Shown here one piece after another: positions 16,904-28,543 of a stretch of 64,000 bases of DNA. This DNA is from Daucus carota subsp. sativus (lineage: Eukaryota > Streptophyta > Magnoliopsida > Apiales > Apiaceae). The notes under the pieces were generated by a model, which saw nothing but the letters and a program-made list of their open reading frames with translations, made no database searches and was not told where the DNA came from. The stretch lies in assembly GCF_001625215.2 (NCBI RefSeq), contig NC_030385.2, positions 2,597,135 to 2,661,134 of the forward strand. Direction: 5' to 3'. Every line of letters begins with the position of its first letter. Positions within the stretch are counted from its first letter, which is position 1. Both the position numbers and the translations under genes were made by a program.

Positions 16904-18426
16904 CTAGCACTTGATTCTCTGAACTGAAAGTGGGTACCGGAAAGAGTTTGCATAATGAAACGAGAGGGTACGCCCATTGGCAAGAGGCTTTCCGTCGTTA
17001 ACAATGCAGTCATTATATCTCAGGCGCTTGAATATCCGTGGATTCACCAGACGAATGGAGCTAAACCAGCCACAACTGAGGTGAATTTCAGCGATATCAC
17101 AGCCTGTGACACACACATTAATGATCTCCACGGTGTATGTAGGTACCCCGGTGGGAAGAGGGGCAGCTGGACCCTGATTGATGAGAATATCAGCCCGGGA
17201 ACATTTGTCCCCCCAGACCCTGGCTGGTTCCACCAATGTAGCTGATGGTGCAGATGGTTCTGTAAATACAAAACAAAACAAGTTTAAAGACATGCATGAA
17301 AATGGCATTGTTTGTTGTACTTGTGAAAATTGGAATTGCTTTTTGTAAAGCTGGAATTGTTTTCTTTTTACATGGTCAACTTTTAAGTCTGCTAGTACAG
17401 GCCCTGATGCCCTCATAGTCTTTCCCTAGACAAAGCATACAGTTCTACAAGTTTCTTCATTCTACACAATGGACAAATTTCGATTCACTAATTCAAAACC
17501 TATATAGGAAAAAAGCCTAATTGCCTATTATCTTGAATTTCAATTTTATGAATCCTCCGAGGATTCATAAAATTGAAATTCCACGAGGATTATCCTCGTG
17601 TGGTGTGCATTGTTCTAAAAATCGATCATCAATCCCCATTAATTATCAATTATTCCATGTTCTGTAACTCGTCAAATTGATTTAACCTTCCGATTATTTG
17701 ATTAAATTTATTCTATGCATTCACCGATTAAATTCGATTGACCTTTTTTTTTTACAATAATGGGGGAGTGACATATACATGGATCACTAGCAAATTAACT
17801 TTTCTATTTTCTTCTTGAATCAAATATTGAGATTTACTTTTTTATTCATAATAAGAATACCGAAAAATATTAAGAGGCCAATACAAATTAAGTGAAAAAT
17901 GAAGTACGACAGATAAATACATACTATATTTAAATGTATTACAAAGAGAGACGTGCGCAAGCTATGTGCAAGGACAAAATAGTAGAGTACAAGAGACAGC
18001 TAGGCCTAGGCAAGAGCATGCACAGAGACGGCGAGGAGACATGTAACAGAAAACAGAAGCTAAAAAAGATGATAATGTTACCAGAGATTCTACACAGTAT
18101 TATACTTACATGATACATACAAAAAACAAGCAGTAAATCTCACCGGAATGGATGAGGAGTTTCCGGTGCGGCGAGGCAAGTGGATGGGTGAAAGAGATGC
18201 GACTGTGGTGGAGAGCTGAGGTAAAAAATGATTAAATGAGAGAGTGATTTGGTTGTTAAATGAAATAAATGAGGAAAATAACAAGTCACTTGGGAGATGT
18301 TAATTTAACGAGACAAAAGAAATAATAGAATGATGTTGATGTACCTGTTGGAATGGCTAGCATGAGTAGAAGTAGGAGAGAAATTGTCGCTGCGATCCGG
18401 GAAAGTCTTTGGTGATTCTCCGACAT
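16904..18426 (-). CDS. TPD1-like small secreted cysteine-rich protein, three exons
   Basis: Member of the TAPETUM DETERMINANT 1 (TPD1/TDL1) family, secreted ligands; TPD1 itself is the ligand of the EMS1/EXS receptor kinase that fixes tapetal cell fate in anthers. Exons on the minus strand are 18345-18426, 18144-18215 and 16904-17259; introns are GT-AG and phases agree, giving 169 aa, close to the 176-179 aa of the Arabidopsis proteins. Residues 1-27 form a signal peptide with a Leu-rich core. Exon 2 encodes an HRKLL dibasic motif like that preceding the mature domain in the family. The last exon carries the conserved domain with six Cys, including CVTGCDIAEIHLSCGWFSS and the final Cys. The 72-nt exon 2 is my own placement from splice sites and the RKLL match. 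A (CT)n-rich leader precedes the ATG. Confident on family, less on its developmental role. Confidence 0.9.
17535..17600. repeat. Two adjacent palindromes inside intron 2 of the TPD1-like gene
   Basis: Arms of 23 bp (17535-17557 and 17559-17581) are perfect inverted copies around one central base. They are followed at once by a second hairpin with 9-bp arms (17582-17590 and 17592-17600, CACGAGGAT/ATCCTCGTG). Transcription of the intron would give a 23-bp stem with a minimal loop. The sequence abuts a MITE at 17611. Confidence 0.85.
17611..17758. mobile_element. Second member of the GATTAATCGG-type MITE, inverted
   Basis: Starts TGTTCTAAAAATCGATCATC and contains 'gttctgtaactcg' and repeated 'ccgattat/cgattaaat' words. 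These match the reverse complement of the 7666-7842 element in order (there TGTTCAAAAAGTCGGTGATT, CTGTTCCGTAACTCGCC). More diverged than that copy. It lies inside an intron of the TPD1-like gene. Confidence 0.5.
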
Positions 18427-19397: not shown

Positions 19398-20775
19398 TCT
19401 TTATATTTATATAAAGGAGGATCCTTCAGAGGATGACGTGGCCTCTCTTACAACTCTCCATTTAAATTTCCTATTTTCCTATGAATTCTGTGTTTTCTTA
19501 ATTTTTAATTTACTTTACTGTACTTTTATTTCAACTCTTTTTGCTTTCTCATCTCATTAATTATATTTCGGTTACGTCCTTTTGATTTTGTTCTTAGACT
19601 TCGTTGGCTCTTCTCAACTTTCATTTGTCTGTTCTACCTCCACGTTTCTCCAACTCCCCCTCCAAAGCACCCTCACTCTCTCTCCTCCCCGCCTGTTCAA
19701 TCACCCATCTCAAGAAATTGGGATCTCTTTCGGGTTTAATAGTGAACTACACAAATCATGAAGTGTGGCCTTGAGATTTTGGGAACCTCTTCTCTCTCGG
19801 AAAAAAGCTGAAATGTCAAGTTTTTTGGCGAGCTTTGGACATAATTGGAGGGTATTTTTGTGGGTATCAGATGATGCGCAATGGATTTCTCTGTAGTTGT
19901 AACCTTAAACCTCAGTTGTGAGCCTTTGAACATTGTGGTAAGTTTTGTCCTGTCCATTGTATTATTTGCTAAAATCACCGCGTTCAGTAGTATATTTGTA
20001 TGTAGCTTATCAATTTATTTATCAAGTGCTAATTCTGTTATATATTTATATGTGCCTTATCAAGTGACAATTTATCAATTGTGTTTGTTTCCCAACGTTG
20101 CTTTTCTGTGTATGATATGTAGCAGATAGTAATTACATGCTCTTAAGACTCTTACATACTCTTACTAGGGTGATGTATAAAAGGGCTATAAGTTAATAAT
20201 CTTTCATGCCCTATGTAGGATTAACTTATCCCCTACGAATGGCATCTCCTATCTCTTATTTAGATATCAGGGAATATTTTAATGCCATCCAGACTTTGCA
20301 CATCGAATAACACTGAGAAATATGTCCTTATTGTATGGTATCCAGAGTTTTGAGGTGGCTATGAAATCATACTCCTTTCGAGCTTGATGAAGCAATGCAT
20401 TAAAGAGTGCTTTGTCAAGTAAAGTGATTCAGATTACATATTGAGTTTAAGACGAGAGAAAAATAGGGGCCCTTACTACCTTCATCTGAGCAGCGCCCCA
20501 AAGTTTTGTGATGAGCAAAGCAAAAGGTTGTCTGTTTCCAGATTTTGTACCAGACTGGTCGCAAGGAATGCAGATATTATCTACTTTATTACATAACTCT
20601 GTTCATAATGAGTTCTCCACAAATTTTAAGCGTCCCTGATAGCTACTTGAAATTGGTAAGTTCCATATAACAAAAAATTTAGTGCCTTAATCTTTCAGTA
20701 AGTTTTTTATTATTTGTAAATAATTTCCGCTTTCTTTGCTGGGTGATTAATACACACAGATGTGACAAGACTGAA

Positions 20776-20970
20776 TTACTGCTGAAGGAGTGACATCATT
20801 TCGCAAGACTCTCCCTGCACCTGACCAAGAAACAGGTTCAAGAAATGATTTCTCTTATGATGTGTCCGATGATGTAACCCGTATCAGCCCTCACCTTATG
20901 GATTATGACCTTGGTGATATTTTGGCTCTTGCTAAGATACGTGATTGTGGCATGGCTTGCTATATTTGAT
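20776..20970 (+). pseudogene. Unidentified captured coding fragment in the Helitron
   Basis: A single frame stays open from about 20776 to a stop at 20970 with normal protein composition, containing GVTSFRKTLPAPDQETGSRN and, further on, YDLGDILALAKIRD. It has no start context of its own and lies directly before the GH9 fragment. I do not recognise the donor gene. Confidence 0.5.
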
Positions 20971-20994
20971 GCTTTTTTTTTATGTGGCCAGTGG

Positions 20995-21260
20995 TCACTT
21001 TGATTATCATGATGCCTTGAAAAAATCACTCATATTATTAGAGGCGCAAAGGTTAGCAGAACTTCCTTCTAACAATATCATTTCTCGGAGAACTGATTCT
21101 GCCCTTCAAGATGGTGCATTGTCATGGGCAGCGAAGTTCTATGCAGCAGAACTTGAGGCTGCTGGAGAAATGGAAAATGTGAGGTGTGCCATCCTTTGGG
21201 ATACCGGTTATTATCTGAAAGCCGCTGACAGAGAGAAACTGTTTGTCCAGGTCCTGGCTG
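20995..21260 (+). pseudogene. Captured fragment of a GH9 endo-beta-1,4-glucanase
   Basis: The frame reads FDYHDALKKSLILLEAQR, then TDSALQDG, then ALSWAAKFYAAELEAAGE and WDTGYYLKAADREKLFVQ. This follows the N-terminal part of plant GH9 endoglucanases (YxDALxKSxxFFEAQRSGKLP..RGDSxLxDG, then the ELxxAGELxNxxxAIRWGTDYxLKA block). The stretch that should hold the catalytic-site motif GGYYDAGD between DG and ALSW is missing, and the rest of the enzyme is absent, so it cannot be functional. It was brought in by the Helitron. Confidence 0.75.
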
Positions 21261-21363
21261 AAGTAAGTAAATCTCTCTCTCCCTCCCTCCTCCTCTCTCG
21301 TCTCGTGAGTATATAAATTTTGGTGTAATTATGTTTGTCTATCTCATCTGTTTATGTTCAAAG

Positions 21364-21510
21364 ATGGAGATGAACTCAAGTTGGCAACAAGAGAGGCTGA
21401 GAGAGTTCTGCCAGGCCAACAAAATCATGATGGCTGCTTATTCTCCTCTTGGAAGGAGCTTCTGGGGAACCAAAGGAGTGCTTGAATCTGAAAGGAGTGC
21501 TTGAATCTGA
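21364..21510 (+). pseudogene. Captured fragment of an aldo-keto reductase
   Basis: Reads EMNSSWQQERLREFCQANKI, then AAYSPLGRSFWGTKGVLESE, matching the VEMNPxWQQxKLREFCxxxGI..AxSPLGxxGxxWG block of plant NADPH-dependent aldo-keto reductases (chalcone reductase/codeinone reductase type). Only one exon's worth is present. A short direct duplication (GGAGTGCTTGAATCTGA twice in a row near 21475-21510) disrupts the end. Confidence 0.75.
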
Positions 21511-21941
21511 GCTTGTTATTGTGTCAGGAGCTTCTTAAATCTTAAAGAAAGACCTAGGTAGTATCTACAGATTTTTGACTAGGAGTTGAGTGAGTGATGA
21601 AGAGTCCGAAAAGGTTGCTGAAATTCCTTGAACATGTAACCATCCTTTAAATATTTGTTGAACTTCACTTTGTAGTGAGGTTCCTTAAAGGCCTCTGCAA
21701 CTTCTTCTGCATATATTTTCTTATATTTTGATAATAAATGTGAAATACAAGGATTAAGAAATTATAGTTCATAAATTTTTTTTATAACATCTTATATTTA
21801 TATTTTTATCACTCGCGCGAAGCGCGTTTTTTTCACTAGTATGTAGATATAAAACGCGGAACTAATCCAATGAAGATTATCCAGCTACTTGCATGACTGT
21901 TTCAGCAGAAAAAGCATAAGTCATTCAAATATATAAATATA

Positions 21942-27758: not shown

Positions 27759-28021
27759 TATAAATGTAACCATTTTACATTTTACTAATCATCAGCTCTC
27801 TCAAATACATCATCTCTTAAATATCTTTTCCACTTTGTTCTTTAAACAACAATATAGTCTAGCTAGGGTTTGTTTCCGTGGGTAAACTGCCGTAAACCTA
27901 GAGCAACACTATCAAACCCTATATAGAGCAACACTATCAAACACTCGACCTTAGGAATATTATTATTATTTATATTCATTTCTATCATCTTAATTCTTTT
28001 CTATCTCAACCATATACGTAC

Positions 28022-28543
28022 ATGGAGTGGGAAAAGTTGAGCAATGTTAAGAAAAATCTAATCACCAGAACATGGCAGCGTTGTCGATCCATCCCGAGAA
28101 GACGGAAATCTTTCGCACCACTTTCAATTCTTCCCAGATCTCTATCATGCAAAGAGAGCAAAACAAACTGCAAAATGGCTCCTCGTGGTTGCTTCTTCGT
28201 CTACGTCGGACCGGAGAAGCAGAGATTCGTAATCAAGACCGAGTACGTGAATCATCCTTTATTCAAAATTTTGCTCGAAGAGGCCGAAACCGAATACGGT
28301 TTTATGAGCGACGGTCCTATCTTGCTTCCATGTGATGTGAATCTTTTTTACAAAGTCTTAGCAGAGATGGATAGTGGTAAATGCGAGAATCAAGTTTACA
28401 TGAGGTCGAAATCATGTGGCCTTGCATACGGACTATGTAGTCCGTTCAGTCCGACCCGACGATCGTATAAGAATGGCGGTATGGGGAAGGAATTTGGTTC
28501 ATATGGCCTGCTTACTCCATCTCGGCTCATTAGAATGAACTAG
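28022..28543 (+). CDS. SAUR-like auxin-responsive protein, copy 2
   Basis: Small auxin-up RNA protein. SAURs are short-lived plant regulators; the best studied inhibit PP2C.D phosphatases and so promote H+-ATPase activity and cell expansion. Single exon, 173 aa, as expected for intronless SAURs. The SAUR domain spans about residues 52-116: MAPRGCFFVYVGPEKQRFVI, NHPLFKILLEEAETEYGF and ILLPCD are the conserved blocks. The basic N-terminal extension (KNLITRTWQRCRSI) and the C-terminal SYGLLTPSRLIRMN are shared with the other tandem copies. An internal ATG at the domain start (MAPRG) exists, but the longer frame is conserved between copies and was preferred. Promoter block at 27424-27505, now separated by a MITE. 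Confident on family; which SAUR subgroup is not determined. Confidence 0.92.
   Translation: MEWEKLSNVKKNLITRTWQRCRSIPRRRKSFAPLSILPRSLSCKESKTNCKMAPRGCFFVYVGPEKQRFVIKTEYVNHPLFKILLEEAETEYGFMSDGPILLPCDVNLFYKVLAEMDSGKCENQVYMRSKSCGLAYGLCSPFSPTRRSYKNGGMGKEFGSYGLLTPSRLIRMN

Follow-up and report, generated by a model that had tools for sequence, protein, structure and literature searches.

Helitrons are well known in plants as collectors of gene fragments. Their hallmarks are a 5' TC, a 3' CTRR and a GC-rich hairpin that precedes the 3' end by about 10-12 bp; they have no terminal inverted repeats, and they insert between A and T (or between T and T) without a target duplication. Among described systems, maize provides non-autonomous Helitrons with gene fragments that were captured stepwise (Dong et al. 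2011, PMC3288121), insects provide the Hel1 family, in which acquisition is internal and stepwise and junction overlaps measure 2-13 bp (PMC6544945), and plants provide Mothra, a high-copy non-autonomous group with TC...hairpin...CTAG ends that captured a gene fragment before the family spread and for which a putative mother element is described that has an RPA homologue (PMC4683698).

We analyzed a 64,000-bp stretch of the carrot genome (C5:2597135-2661134; hereafter, the window), which contains a 2442-bp element on its plus strand at positions 19398-21839. We consider it very probable that this element is a non-autonomous Helitron of recent origin belonging to a carrot family, whose ends would be recognized in trans by the Rep/helicase of another Helitron, and that its cargo was gained through stepwise captures and is now decaying as a passenger. 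Like the maize elements, it shows shared 5' and 3' ends, fragments from several loci, a one-by-one capture series and internal losses; its host, ends and cargo are different and, unlike the maize elements, it has a fragment within an earlier captured fragment (PMC3288121). Since stepwise gene-capturing Helitrons are known from maize, the carrot element is of an already known kind. Its likeness to the insect Hel1 family lies in the capture pattern, and its junction overlaps are 0-3 bp (PMC6544945). It resembles Mothra in its end structure, in belonging to a high-copy non-autonomous group and in the capture of a gene fragment before the family spread (PMC4683698). In the part of the carrot Helitron literature that was covered, we found no description of this element, and the literature searched contained nothing joining Helitron gene-fragment capture with aldo-keto reductase (AKR). 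The locus is a well-resolved dicot case of stepwise gene capture, with source-like genes, intermediates and recent copies in one assembly.

Termini, young copies and family

The element lies between an A (19397) and a T (21840), starts with TCTTTATATTTATATAAAGGAGGATCC and finishes with ...CGCGCGAAGCGCGTTTTTTTCACTAG. It thus has the 5' TC, and its 3' terminus, CTAG (21836-21839), conforms to CTRR. A hairpin, CGCGC-GAA-GCGCG (21814-21826), with a 5-bp stem and a 3-nt loop, is located 13 nt before the 3' end. The clean termini between A and T and the size given in the initial annotation are therefore both confirmed. The first 310 bp (19398-19707) form a 5' terminal region that is common to relatives, and element positions 2315-2442 (21712-21839) form the 3' terminal region of the family, which is present also where no cargo match was seen. 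The hairpin has a folding energy of -6.3 kcal/mol, and 9 of 200 shuffled sequences fold equally well, so the hairpin on its own is weak evidence. It is also shorter than the 15-20 bp hairpin motif quoted in the Mothra report (PMC4683698). Inspection by eye revealed neither a target duplication around the window element nor terminal inverted repeats in its sequence, and no long frame fit for Rep/helicase was found within it. When the two flanks are joined, they match only the window's own place in the one assembly searched, which thus yielded no empty site. The element sits between a TPD1-like gene (window 16904-17425, minus strand; PF24068, 5.2e-39) and a SAUR gene (window 27902-28543, plus strand; PF02519, 3.5e-25).

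The initial annotation had read this interval as a Helitron whose terminal sequences should recur in the genome, and they do. The 3' 29-mer has 71 genomic matches and the 5' 28-mer has 70, both at ≤3 mismatches, and the corresponding reversed-pattern controls have none. Querying with the element extended by 1 kb of flank at either end, we also found three other full copies in the same 441-Mb genome, with the match ceasing within 1-2 chance bases of both ends: L009 (C2:53100677-53103642, 2966 bp), L010 (C3:46938196-46934360, minus strand, 3837 bp) and L011 (C8:2076980-2080431, 3452 bp). The four copies, on four chromosomes, share exact ends. The target dinucleotide is A|T in the window, L010, L011 and the older relative L013, and T|T in L009; the 5' boundary of a second older relative, L012, is ambiguous. 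These results bear directly on the idea that the interval is no transposon at all and represents a locally rearranged pseudogene cluster with Helitron-like ends that arose by chance. A hairpin just moderately better than shuffled sequence is what such a cluster might display, but the same end points on four chromosomes and the 71 and 70 terminal matches against none for the reversed controls make this explanation vanishingly improbable.

Over element positions 341-1277 and 1326-2442, to which the divergence calculations are confined, the window element differs from L009 at 6 of 2034 aligned bases, from L010 at 15 of 2032 and from L011 at 11 of 2035, and all six pairs of the four copies differ at 6-17 of 2031-2035 aligned bases. 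Plant substitution rates of 7e-9 and 1.3e-8 place the age of the copies at roughly 0.1-0.5 My. In carrot, the young copies are likely to be usable as presence/absence markers, and they may also lead to false gene annotations. L010 and L011 hold an additional 0.9-1.4 kb between element positions 340 and 341. Since this stretch is found also in L012 and L013, it was probably lost from the window element and L009.

The young copies also display rearrangements of their own. L009 contains at its positions 951-1484 an inserted 534-bp element. As judged by eye, this insert is bounded by long inverted repeats at its termini (GGGTTAATAATCAAGTGAGTCAC), and its target is duplicated over 10 bp (TTTAAATTTC). 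In the C8 copy, element positions 1278-1325 are replaced by an inverted copy of positions 1-208 (L011:3127-3337). L010 is bordered immediately at both ends (flanks C3:46938197 and C3:46934359) by an identical 11-bp direct repeat, TTATAAATAAA. A target duplication is not expected of Helitrons, and this repeat could be a chance occurrence in AT-rich DNA or a short repeat that existed beforehand.

In the wider family, a same-strand 5' end is found no more than 20 kb away for 29 of the 71 3' ends. When each of these 29 is paired with its closest 5' end, 23 members measure 2.4-4.0 kb and the remainder 1.7-8.1 kb; an 8.1-kb relative lies at C2:49694857-49702952. We compared 30 loci, the window's own included, over 1.5 kb on each side of the 3' end, a span that would miss cargo lying farther away. 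At 23 of them the match to the window is solely in the last 72-128 bp, and at the other 7 it includes cargo as well. Thus, the family has differing cargo behind constant ends. At three places (C2:39843140-39845452, C6:20780665-20783708 and C7:33642095-33642436), several 5' ends, four to six of them, stand in series ahead of one 3' end; multiple termini are likewise reported for maize Helitrons. L013 (C2:6673700-6679600) and L014 (C2:6631900-6641000) have about 3.2 kb in common at 90% identity, upstream flank included, and L014 has the appearance of a segmental duplicate whose match does not extend over the 3' part of the Helitron.

Captured gene fragments

The cargo resembles four unrelated genes on four chromosomes: an AKR gene (C8), a GH9 endoglucanase gene (C2), an Ulp1/C48 protease gene (C7) and a SAUR gene (C6). 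A single ancestral gene at the site is rejected on this basis, and the continuous gene that would have overturned the initial annotation did not materialize. The best source matches are at 84-90% identity among the 40 of 169 candidates that were scored, and the actual donors may be different paralogues of the genes named here. The annotation had listed at least three pieces in a single orientation. Multiple captures are indeed present, and their number and identity are amended here to four, one of which is antisense to the element.

That antisense piece is a fragment of an auxin-responsive SAUR gene (PF02519) at 20276-20441 on the minus strand (element positions 879-1044). Its nearest gene is C6:31895809-31895974, with 90% identity, and this host gene scores 3.4e-24 against PF02519. 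The same SAUR piece, together with some flanking sequence, is contained in L021 and L026. These two elements are 92% alike across 2.1 kb, and both terminate in a related hairpin and CTAG. Upstream of the SAUR piece lies a stretch (19708-20270, plus strand; element positions 311-873) whose genome matches are four in number and are the four young copies themselves, two of them aligning from query base 31 on. Because the matches are confined to these copies, no source was found for the stretch; the lack of matches elsewhere is no proof of its rarity.

The piece that had been left as an unidentified coding fragment is now seen to consist of an Ulp1/C48 protease fragment with some 33 bp from AKR exon 2 behind it. 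The protease fragment occupies 20535-20906 on the plus strand. Its first part (20535-20876, element positions 1138-1479) matches C7:39815163-39815506 at 85% identity, and the sequence beyond 20876, to 20906, is common to the relatives L012 and L013 only. The host exon reaches 21.4 bits against PF02902, for which the cut-off is 20.7, and no Pfam match was found for the window's own piece. Judging from its reading frames, the piece seems to retain an intron.

Downstream of the protease fragment, the remaining cargo derives from AKR and GH9 genes, all on the plus strand. It begins with a remnant of AKR exon 2 (LGDILA.AKI) at 20910-20942, which is longer in L012 and L013. GH9 sequence follows in two parts: an exon 1 part at 20942-21114, matching C2:52334602-52334776 at 84% identity, and an exon 2 part at 21117-21253, matching C2:52335013-52335149 at 87% identity. 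The GH9-like host gene at C2:52334602-52335149 is multi-exon, and the window's GH9 frame scores 4.1e-8 against PF00759. The 236 bp that separate the two parts in the host gene are gone; they comprise the last part of exon 1, the intron and the start of exon 2 with VDLVGGYYDAGDNV (YYDAGD), in agreement with the earlier description of a GH9 piece lacking its DAGD segment. L012 and L013 have the same 236-bp loss from the same joint. Because adjoining coding sequence, upstream as well as downstream, went along with the GH9 intron, the loss is attributed to deletion and not to splicing.

AKR sequence resumes at 21252-21721 with intron 2, exon 3 and 3' flank. These match the host's own AKR genes, which confirms the earlier identification of this piece, in a tandem array at C8:32.16 Mb (around C8:32157377-32164169). 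Host AKR exons score 1.2e-14 and 7.5e-12 against PF00248; the window's 47-residue AKR piece reaches 18.5 bits, under the 24-bit cut-off, and its exon 3 contains stops and deletions. Alignment to the host genes with their introns therefore gives different outcomes for the two fragments, with AKR intron 2 kept and the GH9 intron deleted. Given the retained intron 2, AKR was captured as DNA, and capture via cDNA is rejected for this fragment.

The arrangement of the two fragments is best seen in L012 and L013. There, AKR exon 2 continues to AAGATACC or AAGATACT before the sequence switches to GH9, and downstream of GH9 it picks up near the AKR exon 2/intron 2 boundary. By this comparison, which was made with one host AKR gene, the GH9 fragment is nested inside the AKR piece and not placed beside it. 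The initial view of unrelated gene fragments lying side by side is thus upheld as to their unrelatedness and revised as to their placement. The GH9-AKR joints overlap by about 3 bp and 2-3 bp, as judged by eye, and the internal GH9 joint overlaps by 0-1 bp.

Order and mode of capture

The junction between AKR and the 3' end is common to nine elements: the window element, L009-L013 and L023-L025, with an insert at the joint in L025 and a small deletion in L013. GH9 and Ulp1 are present in six elements, and no match to either was found in L023, L024 or L025 in the stretches compared. Among the nine, SAUR is present only in the four young copies, which also have the unsourced stretch; outside of the nine, SAUR is found in the two sister-family elements L021 and L026. 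This distribution suggests that AKR was captured first (junction in nine elements), that GH9 was patched into AKR and Ulp1 was added next (six elements), and that SAUR and the unsourced stretch would have come last. Two further elements contain AKR sequence. L044 has some of it and falls outside the nine-element junction alignment. L018 has AKR without GH9 and a different 3' junction, and it may represent a second AKR capture, a divergent branch or a later change; L018 does not settle the order.

As we picture its history, the element would move by a rolling-circle mechanism with the hairpin acting as the stop signal, and breaks inside it would be mended by filler-DNA repair, with gene pieces being taken up stepwise in the process. 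The filler-DNA model, as described in the Hel1 report, entails that sequence is acquired internally and step by step and that the junctions have short overlaps (PMC6544945). The overlaps of 0-3 bp estimated by eye at the carrot joints are little evidence for filler DNA. The GH9 patch in an older AKR fragment, with the family 3' end downstream, does bear on the choice between internal break repair and end bypass, in which replication runs past the 3' end into neighboring genes and halts at a new terminator. End bypass has been demonstrated for Helraiser, a reconstructed bat Helitron (PMC4778049), and AKR is the piece nearest to the 3' end, as might be expected from such an event. However, the captured pieces come before the last 128 bp of the family, which form the sole match at 23 of 30 loci, and GH9 lies within AKR. 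Since all of the captures are inside the termini and one is within another, filler-DNA repair fits better, and we regard end bypass as unlikely.

Probable decay of the cargo and candidate sources of Rep

Both GH9 parts are covered by a single 123-aa open frame, and the reading frame is intact across the 236-bp deletion, which raises the question of whether the GH9-AKR fragment yields a selected short protein or a chimeric RNA and is thereby a gene in the making. Between elements, the Ka/Ks ratios of the second GH9 part (41 codons) are 0.25, 0.33 and 0.35, calculated from 4-6 synonymous changes, and among 26 GH9 changes that are private to one element there are 0 stops, with about one expected. 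These same 26 changes divide into 8 synonymous and 18 nonsynonymous, as anticipated without selection (25-29% synonymous, 67-71% nonsynonymous and about 4% stop). The first GH9 part has no synonymous change between the window and L012, and its ratios are 0.65 and 0.33 in the other pairs. Furthermore, L013 is frameshifted in GH9, GH9 divergence (6.8-10%) is about equal to that of the surroundings (5-15%), the DAGD segment is gone, and AKR exon 3 of the window copy, aligned in the gene's frame, is interrupted by 5 in-frame stops as well as several deletions. Counting against the passenger reading, the Ka/Ks of AKR exon 3 is 0.46 (window-L012) and 0.52 (window-L013). Neither the private GH9 changes nor the Ka/Ks ratios gave a clear sign of selection on the cargo. 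From sequence comparison, a gene in the making is highly improbable, and the most likely status of the cargo is that of passenger DNA in decay. Also very unlikely is a combined scenario in which the cassette is transcribed and the antisense SAUR piece or RNA from the GH9/AKR joint regulates the parent genes via small RNAs, with the young copies as dispersed switches.

Mobilization would depend on the Rep/helicase of another Helitron acting on the ends in trans. The genome has 168 Rep-domain matches, and we compared 149 of them with 86 3' ends; among these, no locus was found that combines a Rep gene with both family ends. A Rep gene at C4:20251662, with an open frame of 1501 aa, is situated 4.6 kb 5' of a similar hairpin-CTAG end and shares its strand. 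The C4 hairpin is identical to that of many family members. With about 0.29 same-strand coincidences of Rep and a 3' end expected by chance, a differing subterminal sequence and 5 kb of upstream sequence in which no family 5' end was seen, the C4 locus is a lead only. Another Rep match, C3:13562455, is near a 3' end on the opposite strand.

A further Rep-domain match, C7:39180360-39180818 on the minus strand, lies about 6 kb from the SNP chr7_39186121; within 30 kb of this match, no 3' end belonging to the family described here was found. The SNP is the marker used for DCAR_730022, the candidate gene for Y2 in carrot. According to the carrot DH1 v3 paper, a Helitron disrupts this gene, as an insertion of 17 kb in DH1, and it occurs in 97% of orange accessions as well (PMC10581907).
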